From: Pseudoselenomonas ruminantium
GTDB lineage: Bacteria > Bacillota > Negativicutes > Selenomonadales > Selenomonadaceae
Length of the DNA stretch: 40,235 nucleotides
Assembly (NCBI GenBank): GCA_902781305.1
Contig: CACZIV010000010.1
Span: 1 to 40,235 of the forward strand
Reading direction: 5' to 3'
The position numbers and the translations under genes were made by a program. Under the pieces are notes generated by a model. It saw only the letters and a list, made by a program, of their open reading frames with translations, did not search any database and was not told the origin of the DNA. This document shows, in pieces, positions 32,362-35,544 of the stretch. The stretch's first letter is position 1. Every line of letters starts with the position of its first letter.

Positions 32362-32464
32362 ACTCTCATCTTATAGGCTTCGCCTAAAGGAATTGGCACC
32401 GTTTCGCCATTGCGATGGTTGCCGCAGCTTCATTGGGCCTATCCCTCCACTGCTCTGGATGAGT
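32362..32464 (-). ncRNA. SAM-I riboswitch (S-box)
   Basis: The minus strand carries the S-box core: AGAGCAGTGGAGGGATAGGCCC, ATGAAGCTGCGGCAACC, then GGTGCCAATTCC, closed by P1 (ACTCATC with GATGAG). SAM binding should stabilise P1, free the terminator arm and stop transcription before metK. Confidence 0.96.
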
Positions 32465-32490
32465 TCATATTCAGCTTTATCGATAGAATG

Positions 32491-32554: not shown

Positions 32555-33175
32555 TTATTCTGTTGGCTTAAATTTTTTGCGGATAATCATTTCAATATGA
32601 TTTCCCTCAACCGAAACCTGTATATCATCGGCAATGTTCGCCACGATGGACTTTTCCAATTCATCCAGGGCTTCTTCCATTTCCGTATCTTCATCGGCTT
32701 TCTTTTCCACATCATACCGATATTGCTGCAATGACCACATATAAGCATCCGCTGCCATCCCGACACCACCCATGCTCATGCAATGCATATCACCGGTCGA
32801 TACCATGGCGCCATCTTTTATGTTATAAAGGCTGTCTTCGATGAAATCCTTTATCTTGCCCATGATACCTACAGAGGCTTCATTTCTCTTTTTGGAGGAA
32901 GTATCGATAAGCTCCTGCTTTTTATCGTAATTCATCAAGGCATCAGCCAAAAGGTGCAATTCACAGTTGCCATCCGGCGAGCCTTCCATCCAAAAATCAG
33001 CGGAGAAATCCTCCACAATTGCCCGTACCATGCTCATGGTTTCTTCGGCCAAAAGCCGGGCACGGCGGGCGCTGCGCTCGCCAAAGCCCATTCCGGCGCT
33101 GAAGGACTCGACCTCATCTAAAGCAGCTTCCATGCCATAGCCGAGACTATTTACCTTAATTTTTGTGGTTCTCAT
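32555..33175 (-). CDS. RsbW-like (degenerate HATPase) anti-sigma or switch-kinase-type protein
   Basis: The 206-aa protein is placed directly after a STAS antagonist gene, like rsbV-rsbW. The segment GERSARRARLLAEETMSMVRAIV (about 32-54) looks like the N-box helix of GHKL ATPases, but the usual N-box Asn is not obvious. A glycine-rich GGVGMAADAYMW stretch (near 136) could be the ATP lid. A charged linker around residues 85-105 interrupts the domain. The C-terminus is strand-like (DDIQVSVEGNHIEMIIRKKF). Kinase activity is therefore doubtful; protein binding to the STAS partner is the better guess. GGGGA lies about 7 bases before the ATG. Confidence 0.6.
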   Translation of the reverse strand: MRTTKIKVNSLGYGMEAALDEVESFSAGMGFGERSARRARLLAEETMSMVRAIVEDFSADFWMEGSPDGNCELHLLADALMNYDKKQELIDTSSKKRNEASVGIMGKIKDFIEDSLYNIKDGAMVSTGDMHCMSMGGVGMAADAYMWSLQQYRYDVEKKADEDTEMEEALDELEKSIVANIADDIQVSVEGNHIEMIIRKKFKPTE

Positions 33176-33195
33176 GCAACCATCCCCAATCCCTG

Positions 33196-33495
33196 TTATT
33201 CTTCGATGGTAAGGAAGTCAATAAAGCCCGTCATTTCCAGTACATCTTTAACATCGCTGTTGACATGGGTAAGCTTCATCGACCCCTGTTTCTTCATCCG
33301 TTTCTGCGCCAGCAGCAGGACGCGCAGGCCGGCAGATGCTACATAGACCAGTTCACTGAAATCAAAGGTCAAATCCGTAACGCCAGCCAATTCATTCTGC
33401 ACAACTTTATCCAGTTCGGGAGCCGTAACTGCATCCAGACGGCCAACCAATGCAAGCTTCAACACCGAACCATTTTGTTCTTTTTTAATCTCCAT
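33196..33495 (-). CDS. STAS-domain anti-sigma factor antagonist (RsbV/SpoIIAA-like)
   Basis: A 99-aa single STAS domain. The strand-helix pattern (VLKLALVGRLDAVTAPELDKVV, then TFDFSELVYVASAGLRVLLLA) is typical, with Ser54 in YVASAGLR as the expected phosphorylation site. In known systems the unphosphorylated form binds an RsbW-type kinase and frees a partner. Here the next gene, 20 bases on, is RsbW-like, while the gene upstream is a condensation-like/cNMP-like protein. AGGGG 9 bases upstream supports the ATG. No sigma factor gene is close, so the output may not be a sigma factor. Confidence 0.88.
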   Translation of the reverse strand: MEIKKEQNGSVLKLALVGRLDAVTAPELDKVVQNELAGVTDLTFDFSELVYVASAGLRVLLLAQKRMKKQGSMKLTHVNSDVKDVLEMTGFIDFLTIEE

Positions 33496-33569
33496 AACAG
33501 GTAACCCCTTTCATTTATCGTCACATTATATTATTCGCTTTATTTTTCCATTTTCCTGCATTTTTTTGT

Positions 33570-35420
33570 TTATGACTGCATCCAAAGTTTCTGATAGCTC
33601 TCCAGCTGCCTTACTGTGTGCTGAATGATATTCTTTGCCAGCTGCGGTGAATTTTCGGTTAAACGCTGCAACGCCGACAGCGGAACCGTCAGCAGCACAG
33701 CCTGTTCAGTAAGCACTTCTGCCGACAGGCGACACTTCCGTTTGGGCAGCAGGGCCAGTTCATTAATCCAGCTGGTTTCCACCCGGATATCCAACGCATT
33801 GTACCAGCCATCACCGGTTTCCAGACAGCGTGCCACCTTGCCTTTGACCAAGAAGACTGCATTTTCCTCGATTTCTTTCTCGGCAATACGATCGCCTTCA
33901 AAACGCGTACTCAGCTTTGCATCCCGCATAAAGAGTTGAATCAGGCCTCTGTCACATTCCTGCAAGAGCGACAGGCGGGAAATATAATCCTGCAATATCT
34001 TGCGGGAATCCTCCGGCGGAATCTGCTGTATCTCCTGCTTCCAGCGATTTTGCAAGCGGGGCAAAAATTCTGCATAGGACAGATTCCAATCGGTCAGCAG
34101 CTGCTGCAGAACCAACAGATAATGATTGGCCAGCATACGGATATCGGCATCCGTAAAGAGTTTCTCACGATAAACAAACTTTAACCAAACCTGTCCCTCA
34201 TCGGCACTAAACCGCAAAGCCAAACGGACATTGCGCACATCCATTGAATTTTGCAGAACAACGCTGCCCTCCAGGCATCCCTTGACTTCCACATAGGTTT
34301 TCCCGGATTGGAAGAAATCAACAAAGTTCAAGAAATGGTCAAAATTATTTTCCCAGCTGCCGACCAATGAGGCAATATCCCTGCGGGCCAAAGCCGCATA
34401 AGGCTTGGAGATGACAAACTGCTGAAATGCCTTTGTGATGATTCCCTGTACAGTAGAACCATCCTCAATCTGCATACGCATCGGCACCAGACTAGGCTCA
34501 GCACCCTCCCCCTGGCTGCGCGGCACCAACAGGCAATACGCCAGATCCTGACATTCATTTTCCTGTTGCAGCAAAAAGCTCCATGCTGTATGCAAGATGG
34601 ACATCAGCATCATCTTATTGTCCTTGGCCTGCTTGCGCAAATCAGACTGAATGTCCAAGGGAATCCGGATGACATAACTGTTTTGGCGGGAATCCGAATT
34701 TTCTCCGCCTTTTCGCATATAGGGAACTTTCGGCAGCGGTGGAAGTCCGCTTAATACTTTTGACCAATAATTCATCACCGGTTCAGCCATCTTCTCGGTC
34801 ATGACCAGGCCGTTATCCCGGCTGGCATTCAGTTGTACATTCTCCCCCTGCGCCAAACGGAAAAGATTGTGGATATTCAGCCCATTCAAAACGGCTTGCA
34901 CAGCAGTTACAATAACGGCATACTCATCCGTCCCCGTATGGAGTATCACAAAACGGATCAACATGTCATGCTTCAGGTCAAATCCTTGACGCATTTCCGT
35001 TTCCATAATCTTCCGCAACGTTCCATCCAGTTCATCTTCTGGCACATCCTCCAAATTGCGGAATACAATCGTTGGGAGTTCCCGTCGTTCGGTAAAAACT
35101 ACCGCTACCGTCCGATTCTTTAAGGGACAGTAATTTAGCCGCCAAGCCTCTTCAGCTGCCATCATTTTATTAACGGCCATATTAAATTTCAGCGGAAGAA
35201 TCTTGCCCTTTATCTTATACAGGGTCTGCAATACGGCCCCTGACGTATTTACATTTGCCTTGGCGCCCAATAAACTTTCCTCGCGGTTATTTAATTCCCG
35301 TATATACTGAATGGTCTTGGCAGCCAGGCCGTGCATGCCTTTCTGCGCACCATAAATACACTCCAAAAAAATCTGTGTGGTGCTATCCAGTTCAGCAAAT
35401 GTCCGTCTTTCATCAGCCAT
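33570..35420 (-). CDS. Degenerate condensation-domain protein fused to a cyclic-nucleotide-binding-like domain
   Basis: The 616-aa protein joins two modules. Residues ~65-475 resemble NRPS condensation domains: YWSKVLSGLPPLPKVP, the linker ALARRDIAS and the closing FTDADIRMLANHYLLVLQQLL fit the fold. The catalytic HHxxxDG is replaced by VQAVLNG (174-180), losing both histidines and the aspartate, so condensation is unlikely. Residues ~485-616 look like a CRP-type cyclic-nucleotide-binding fold (FEGDRIAEKEIEENAVFLVKGKVA), with NELALL...RLSA where cAMP binders have GELAL...RxA. No DNA-binding domain follows. ATG at 35418-35420 has AGGGGG 9 bases upstream; a longer frame to 35453 is less likely. 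It precedes STAS and RsbW-like genes. Function unknown. Confidence 0.7.
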   Translation of the reverse strand: MADERRTFAELDSTTQIFLECIYGAQKGMHGLAAKTIQYIRELNNREESLLGAKANVNTSGAVLQTLYKIKGKILPLKFNMAVNKMMAAEEAWRLNYCPLKNRTVAVVFTERRELPTIVFRNLEDVPEDELDGTLRKIMETEMRQGFDLKHDMLIRFVILHTGTDEYAVIVTAVQAVLNGLNIHNLFRLAQGENVQLNASRDNGLVMTEKMAEPVMNYWSKVLSGLPPLPKVPYMRKGGENSDSRQNSYVIRIPLDIQSDLRKQAKDNKMMLMSILHTAWSFLLQQENECQDLAYCLLVPRSQGEGAEPSLVPMRMQIEDGSTVQGIITKAFQQFVISKPYAALARRDIASLVGSWENNFDHFLNFVDFFQSGKTYVEVKGCLEGSVVLQNSMDVRNVRLALRFSADEGQVWLKFVYREKLFTDADIRMLANHYLLVLQQLLTDWNLSYAEFLPRLQNRWKQEIQQIPPEDSRKILQDYISRLSLLQECDRGLIQLFMRDAKLSTRFEGDRIAEKEIEENAVFLVKGKVARCLETGDGWYNALDIRVETSWINELALLPKRKCRLSAEVLTEQAVLLTVPLSALQRLTENSPQLAKNIIQHTVRQLESYQKLWMQS

Positions 35421-35518: not shown

Positions 35519-35544
35519 TGACCCGTCAAAAATTTGACAGGTCA
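35519..35544 (-). terminator. Intrinsic terminator after ribF
   Basis: A stem TGACCTGTCAAA / TTTGACGGGTCA (one mismatched or G-U position) with a 2-nt centre is followed by TTTTTCC on the minus strand, 6 bases past the ribF stop. It closes the infB-ribF operon. Confidence 0.88.

Follow-up and report, generated by a model that had tools for sequence, protein, structure and literature searches.

A degraded condensation-fold protein with a CRP-like part encoded beside STAS and probable RsbW-like genes in Pseudoselenomonas ruminantium: candidate effector half of a partner-switching module

Partner switching, which normally controls RNA polymerase, is known chiefly for freeing sigma factors; a few systems act on other targets. 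In the sigB operon the genes are arranged in the order rsbU-rsbV-rsbW, followed by that of the sigma factor, and in the SiaABCD system of Pseudomonas aeruginosa SiaA is a SpoIIE-type phosphatase. An excerpt of PMC8457831 describes the output side of this system, in which the switch protein SiaC binds and activates the enzyme SiaD, and an excerpt of a review of STAS-only proteins mentions some that act on unknown targets (PMC8256260). Excerpts of a further article report that gut Clostridia produce fatty acid amides with stand-alone condensation domains (OaaC, Coprococcus), a set that keeps the motif (D/H)HxxxDS and has the catalytic second His in over 99% of cases (PMC13142362). Here we describe a locus in a stretch of 40,235 nucleotides from Pseudoselenomonas ruminantium (contig CACZIV010000010.1, assembly GCA_902781305.1; the whole stretch is called the window), in which three minus-strand genes (32558-35420) encode a 616-aa protein that joins a condensation fold to a CRP-like part, a 99-aa STAS protein and a 206-aa protein of probable RsbW-like fold. 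We propose, with a probability of about 0.58, that this trio forms the effector half of a partner-switching module, one with an output other than a SigB/F/G-type sigma factor. The genes and their main sites are as follows.

33573..35420, minus strand: condensation-fold::CRP-like protein, 616 aa (Pfam PF00668, E = 1.1e-21; AlphaFold2; Foldseek); stop codon at 33570-33572
34065..35330, minus strand: condensation-fold part, residues about 31-452 (profile match to solved condensation domains over about 32-452)
34881..34901, minus strand: place of the HHxxxDG motif, reading VQAVLNG, residues 174-180 (alignments and counts)
33597..33989, minus strand: CRP/cyclic nucleotide monophosphate (cNMP)-like part, residues about 478-608, not followed by a DNA-binding domain (profile match; PF00027 at E = 0.0016, below cut-off)
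33199..33495, minus strand: STAS protein, 99 aa (PF01740, E = 4.6e-14; TIGR00377 over cut-off)
33334..33336, minus strand: codon of Ser54, the expected phosphorylation site (invariant in 21/21 aligned STAS rows)
32558..33175, minus strand: 206-aa protein, probable GHKL/RsbW-like fold with the N-box Asn lost (AlphaFold2, Foldseek, hhalign, motif counts)

The genes surrounding relatives of the 616-aa protein were surveyed in 65 named loci (L numbers; C followed by a number denotes a contig and a double colon a fusion), 40 of which have flanks of 4 kb or more in both directions, the other 25 falling short of this on one side. On the same strand and within 6 kb of the condensation::CRP gene, STAS genes were found in 27 loci, SpoIIE genes in 16, kinase genes in 14 (MATE::HATPase matches being excluded from the kinase count) and the 206-aa gene in seven; at least one of STAS, SpoIIE and kinase is present in 28/65 loci and all three in 11/65. 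In a positional control, 27 STAS hits fell within 5 kb (543 kb searched) versus none at 5-10 kb (356 kb), with 17 versus 0 for SpoIIE and 14 versus 1 for the kinase, and no switch-gene hit lay on the opposite strand in any of the 65 loci. The link of the switch genes with the condensation::CRP gene is not a matter of chance. On a 53-row tree, comprising the 52-row alignment described below and one paralogue from the P. ruminantium genome, this linkage appears in clades across the tree and needs seven changes. A preliminary description of the window, made from its letters alone, had asked whether the three genes stay together among relatives: STAS genes are indeed enriched nearby, and the exact trio recurs in only 7/65 named loci.

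Several gene orders occur. The window and L092-L096, among them the record of Selenomonas ruminantium ATCC 12561 (L094), share the order condensation::CRP>STAS>206-aa, to which L102 adds a kinase gene in second place (condensation::CRP>kinase>STAS>206-aa) and L097 a preceding set of genes (MATE::HATPase>SpoIIE>kinase>condensation::CRP>STAS>206-aa). Others read kinase>STAS>SpoIIE>condensation::CRP (L098, L101, L103, L104, L105), condensation::CRP>STAS>kinase (L110) or condensation::CRP>STAS>SpoIIE (L140, L141). The order SpoIIE>STAS>kinase>condensation::CRP, found in L147, L148 and L150, is that of rsbU-rsbV-rsbW with the condensation::CRP gene in the place of the sigma gene, and the kinase may therefore hold the condensation::CRP protein as it would a sigma factor. 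The three signalling folds are those of the RsbU-RsbV-RsbW-SigB and SpoIIAA-SpoIIAB-SigF systems, with a condensation::CRP protein at the sigma position. The linked kinases keep EExxxN, DxG and GGxG in 13/13 rows (12 of the 14 linked named genes and the kinase of the P. ruminantium genome), and the phosphatases that were scanned (L037, L049, L169, L285 and both of contig C15) carry SpoIIE, HAMP and dCache domains. The phosphatase of L037 matches the SiaA model NF038263 at E = 7.1e-36, with 124 bits against a cut-off of 700.

An intact kinase and SpoIIE phosphatases are also present in the P. ruminantium genome, outside the window. On contig C15, a HATPase_c_2 protein (E = 2.4e-20) with intact N- and G-boxes, 61% identical to the L042 kinase, stands behind two dCache-HAMP-SpoIIE genes, a CntK-like gene and a MATE::HATPase gene; no SpoIIE/PP2C phosphatase is listed in the window itself. 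The module looks split between two loci in this genome, and in L097 the counterparts of both stand together, except for the racemase-like gene. The sequences show a STAS protein with a conserved Ser, a catalytically degraded condensation::CRP protein, a probable pseudokinase and, elsewhere in the genome, an intact kinase beside two phosphatases. The CntK-like gene (L167:1660-2487), which lies inside the kinase-phosphatase cluster and resembles a histidine racemase (E = 4.6e-22, below cut-off), may hint at a D-amino-acid-containing product. A separate run on contig C3 (L169:5198-9404) consists of a STAS gene, a Na+:dicarboxylate symporter gene and a gene for a dCache-HAMP-SpoIIE phosphatase; by our own reading the symporter has an RsbW-like N-terminal extension, where Pfam sees only SDF.

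A hidden SigB/F/G sigma factor as client was looked for with the model TIGR02980 and rejected: 0/15 genomes of the family pass its cut-off, as against 1/14 control genomes. The client of the C15 kinase is therefore probably not a sigma factor of these types, to which the claim is limited. In keeping with the preliminary description, the translations on either side of the trio, between 29000 and the end of the window, include no sigma, adenylation or carrier gene that we could see; before 29000 open reading frames were listed without translations.

The 616-aa protein matches PF00668 over the cut-off in two stretches. Its AlphaFold2 model (predicted local distance difference test score, pLDDT, 85.7; predicted template modelling score, pTM, 0.84) was built on a 52-row alignment of the window protein with 51 relatives, from which 14 of the 65 named loci had been omitted. 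The top Protein Data Bank match of this model in Foldseek is the condensation domain of SrfA-C (E = 9e-29), and model, Foldseek and family profile concur on a two-lobed condensation fold resembling chloramphenicol acetyltransferase. The likeness to this domain of a non-ribosomal peptide synthetase (NRPS) covers residues about 31-452; unlike SrfA-C, the window protein has lost HHxxxDG, and no carrier or adenylation gene was seen near the trio in the window. Across the 52 rows the first His of the motif occurs in none, the second His in four and the Asp (Asp179) in 20, and the second His and Asp occur together in two (L155, L156), so that all other rows lack the second His plus Asp of the (D/H)HxxxDS motif of the OaaC type. 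Invariant in all 52 are Arg156, His362, Gly527, Arg531 and Asn553. Because the catalytic His is gone, the 616-aa effector most likely acts through binding and not through catalysis. One metagenome-assembled genome has a broken condensation::CRP frame in two overlapping pieces (L096:9968-11774), which may be an assembly error.

The beta-roll effector fold of the cNMP-binding/CRP family was recovered from the family profile, whose hits to solved CRP/PKG chains cover positions 472-608, the best of them at E = 5.7e-5; the lone 616-aa protein falls below the Pfam cut-off. Unlike CRP/FNR-type proteins, it has no helix-turn-helix after this part. In the family alignment, no Arg is seen to be conserved where the phosphate cassette would be expected by general analogy with CRP; cyclic-nucleotide sensing by this part of the protein is for this reason doubtful. 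Two other matches were confined to the CRP-like stretch and were set aside, one to the encapsulin family 2B model NF041163 (19 bits versus a cut-off of 400) and one to PycTIR (E = 0.035). The reading of the gene as a condensation-like protein with VQAVLNG in place of HHxxxDG, joined to a CRP-like fold without a DNA-binding part, had been put forward in the preliminary description and is borne out by Pfam, AlphaFold2, Foldseek and the alignments; the structural check that it proposed returned the condensation fold, with SrfA-C first. Shorter proteins of 349-369 aa, in which the N-terminal half of a condensation domain is joined to a cNMP domain, are present in four genomes of one genus (L081-L084); in that of L083, PF00027 matches at E = 9.3e-9 and the condensation match is below cut-off.

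Both PF01740 and TIGR00377, the model of the anti-sigma factor antagonist superfamily, identify the STAS protein over their cut-offs. Its Ser54, predicted earlier to be phosphorylatable, sits at the right position in S-x-G-L-(R) and is invariant in all 21 rows of an alignment of the window protein with 20 of the 27 linked named genes.

No Pfam family passes its cut-off with the 206-aa protein, and the matches to Talin and BOF were discarded as lying below theirs. Its AlphaFold2 model, from eight rows, is of low confidence (pLDDT 66.6). Ranks 1-16 of the Foldseek list for this model are SpoIIAB, RsbV/RsbW, UsfX/RsfB and SigF/anti-sigma entries with probabilities of 0.82-1.00, followed by a SiaB-SiaC entry at rank 17; the best E value is only 5.6e-3, none reaches 0.001, and the matched chain is not always stated. 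An hhalign comparison of 13 more diverse rows of the family with the kinase family aligned 46 columns with E = 0.0026 and a probability of only 11.5%. When the N-box is placed through the EE pair that these rows have in common with the kinases, its Asn is absent from 13/13 rows, the EE pair being kept. An RsbW-like nature of the 206-aa protein, as claimed in the preliminary description, is thus supported but not proven: anti-sigma kinase folds come first and the motif is degenerate, with weak E values and a low-confidence model on the other side. We regard the protein as a probable pseudokinase of RsbW fold. The family is present in 19/151 genomes of the window's family, 18 of which also hold the condensation::CRP protein.

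STAS and condensation domains are also found fused to each other. We found 30 STAS::condensation genes in 27/151 genomes of the family, and the condensation::CRP protein is present as well in 26 of the 27. More broadly, 49 of 51 genomes with a STAS::condensation gene or its STAS-free homologue contain the condensation::CRP protein, versus 76/151 overall, and 9/9 versus 14/30 when counted by genus. All co-occurrence counts given here, those of the 206-aa family included, are uncorrected for relatedness. In 28 of the 30 fusion loci the next gene was examined; it encodes a MATE protein in 20 and matches the adenylation-peptidyl carrier protein (A-PCP) part in eight. The six aligned fusions all read YHxxxDG and so keep the catalytic His, and the A-PCP-condensation protein of the P. 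ruminantium genome reads MHPIIDG. Since STAS is fused to a condensation domain in these proteins, direct contact of STAS with condensation folds can be argued, as SiaC contacts SiaD.

The surroundings of the fusions include further switch parts. Contig C9 (L187:2-9452) carries SpoIIE, STAS, STAS::condensation (YHAIMDG), A-PCP-condensation and MATE::HATPase genes in a row, which make up an NRPS-like cluster that includes its own partner switch, and on contig C101 (L189:5671-8987) a STAS::condensation gene lies beside a MATE gene. Among four MATE neighbours studied in full, HATPase_c_2 is over the cut-off in L187 and L268, and no HATPase match was obtained in L189 and L269; the C-terminal end of the L189 protein looks to us like a degenerate HATPase, where Pfam sees only MatE and MurJ. 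MATE::HATPase proteins were found in 5/398 genomes of the phylum (E <= 1e-30), two of them outside the window's family and one of these over its full length. In another family of the phylum, L272 (8096-13383) encodes in a row STAS, a 436-aa protein, a MATE protein that the MATE::HATPase query matches over its full length, and SpoIIE, so that the arrangement is not limited to Selenomonadaceae.

These observations permit a sketch of how the module might work. Binding of an external ligand to the Cache domain would set the activity of the SpoIIE phosphatase, and the dephosphorylated STAS protein would change over between two partners, a kinase fold and the condensation::CRP protein. This effector would work by binding and not by catalysis, and its CRP-like part would add a second input by binding a ligand or a protein. 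The 206-aa protein would be a non-phosphorylating partner of STAS or of some other component of the switch. The STAS::condensation fusions that lie next to MATE exporters in this genome suggest, by analogy, that the module would probably govern how a small synthase-exporter machine is assembled or how active it is. We infer control of small-molecule synthesis or export from these fusions, from their MATE neighbours and from the MATE genes found in some condensation::CRP operons (L097, L098, L113), and the whole suggests that the switch controls something other than transcription. This would resemble SiaABCD in its SpoIIE-type phosphatase and in its switch protein, which in that system binds and activates an enzyme (PMC8457831, excerpt); it differs in its output, a pseudo-enzyme of condensation fold with a CRP-like domain in place of a diguanylate cyclase, and in the extra probable pseudokinase. 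A bolder version, which we offer tentatively and consider rather unlikely to hold as a whole, would see in the Selenomonadaceae switch a docking code for biosynthesis in place of a transcription switch, made up of kinase::MATE and STAS::condensation, with SpoIIE timing the docking of synthase on exporter; the window protein would be a dead synthase copy that competes or acts as a scaffold, and its CRP-like part would report the product or another ligand.

Several observations weigh against a module of this kind. The condensation::CRP protein could be a stand-alone sensor or scaffold, with the switch genes hitting another target and the neighbourhood reflecting shared expression, an unlikely explanation in our judgement, in favour of which are the following: 37/65 named loci lack STAS, SpoIIE and kinase genes nearby (both flanks reach 4 kb or more in 17 of the 37 and are shorter in 20), a clade of nine is free of switch genes (L114, L116, L117, L118, which has a short flank, L119, L122, L123, L139 and L144), and a second condensation::CRP copy of the P. 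ruminantium genome itself (C25) is an orphan. What such a protein does not readily account for is the strong positional excess of switch genes on one strand only and in several gene orders, and the fusion of STAS to condensation domains in the window's own family. In the window, moreover, the kinase and phosphatase are not adjacent to the trio, and sub-cut-off sigma matches of about 250 and 380 aa, which we take by length and score to be of FliA and RpoD type, leave other sigma types as possible clients. The module as first proposed is partly supported: relatives with SpoIIE, STAS and intact kinase genes, and the kinase and phosphatases elsewhere in the P. ruminantium genome, speak for it, and the rarity of the exact trio and the many switch-less loci against it.

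A good deal less probable is that the 616-aa protein remains catalytic, in which case it would be an acyl or amide synthase whose active site has changed, and the switch would toggle synthesis. According to the excerpts on OaaC (PMC13142362), which shares with the window protein its free-standing condensation fold and its origin in a gut anaerobe, gut bacteria have stand-alone condensation domains that are active with altered motifs, and the invariance of Arg156 and His362 together with the retention of Asp179 in 20/52 rows would suit a residual activity; yet the window protein retains neither His, and the second His, present in over 99% of the fatty-acid-amide set, is kept in only 4/52 rows of its family, in two of them with the Asp. 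Nor was a carrier or adenylation gene seen near it in the window. Marginally less probable again is a role of the 206-aa protein as the active kinase for the window STAS, with unusual nucleotide contacts and with only the phosphatase needed from C15. Anti-sigma kinases are its nearest folds and its gene comes after STAS in the window, L285, L286 and L287, but the loss of the N-box Asn from every row and the existence of a canonical kinase, encoded within the operon itself in L097 and L102 and also in the P. ruminantium genome, make it probably not the kinase of the module. In L285 and L287, furthermore, a SpoIIE::HATPase fusion precedes STAS (L285:5997-8585, by Pfam; L287:2025-4613, by profile), with the 206-aa gene following. 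The role as a pseudokinase of the module is itself burdened by the low-confidence model on which it is built and by the family's other settings: in 12 further 206-aa loci STAS adjoins in four (L285, L286, L287, L290) and not in eight, and the condensation gene is absent from the stretch fetched in all 12.

The condensation::CRP protein was matched (E <= 1e-5) in 76/151 genomes and 14/30 genera of the window's family. In a survey of 398 genomes of the phylum, scored for at most three candidates per genome, full-length condensation::CRP proteins were confined to this family (6/11 of its genomes drawn), and so were STAS::condensation fusions (seven genes in 5/11 genomes). A wider spread was rejected, for the matches elsewhere are condensation domains of long NRPS proteins or CRP-like stretches, most of which lie in frames of 220-335 aa and a few in longer ones. 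The 65 named loci are assigned to Selenomonas, Anaerovibrio, Schwartzia, Selenomonadaceae, Selenomonadales and Veillonellaceae, and many are from the rumen. Among the matches listed from the open-licence literature in PubMed Central, no condensation-type effector, STAS::condensation fusion or MATE::kinase fusion is described; the earlier view that no system of this make-up is on record holds to that extent and has to be narrowed, in that the signalling parts are of a known kind and the condensation-type effector is the new variant. If the module proposed here is real, partner switching in rumen bacteria would extend to the making or export of small molecules, the STAS::condensation and MATE::kinase fusions would gain a possible role, and a concrete set of proteins is at hand for binding and phosphorylation work.

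The three adjacent minus-strand genes lie where they had been placed in the preliminary description, flanked by a ribF-like gene and metK (names assigned from translations), with gaps of 74 and 20 bases between them. The reading frame of the 616-aa protein starts at an ATG with a purine-rich stretch before it; an alternative upstream TTG start would give 627 aa. Two features mark the borders.

35519..35544, minus strand: terminator-like stem between the ribF-like gene and the trio (11-pair stem and T tail; pattern match only)
32363..32465, minus strand: S-adenosylmethionine (SAM) riboswitch before metK (Rfam RF00162, 87.2 bits); downstream border of the unit, outside it

The pattern scan gave six promoter-like sites versus 5.9 in shuffled sequences and six terminator-like sites versus 3.5 (standard deviation 1.8), and such matches are weak alone because their counts are near the shuffled expectation. 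With the stem after the ribF-like gene and the SAM riboswitch before metK, the trio looks like a separate unit. Elsewhere in the family, a condensation::CRP gene and STAS are followed by genes for an SbmA/BacA-like ABC transporter and a glycosyltransferase-41-like protein (L124:11870-15575 and L154:926-4842).

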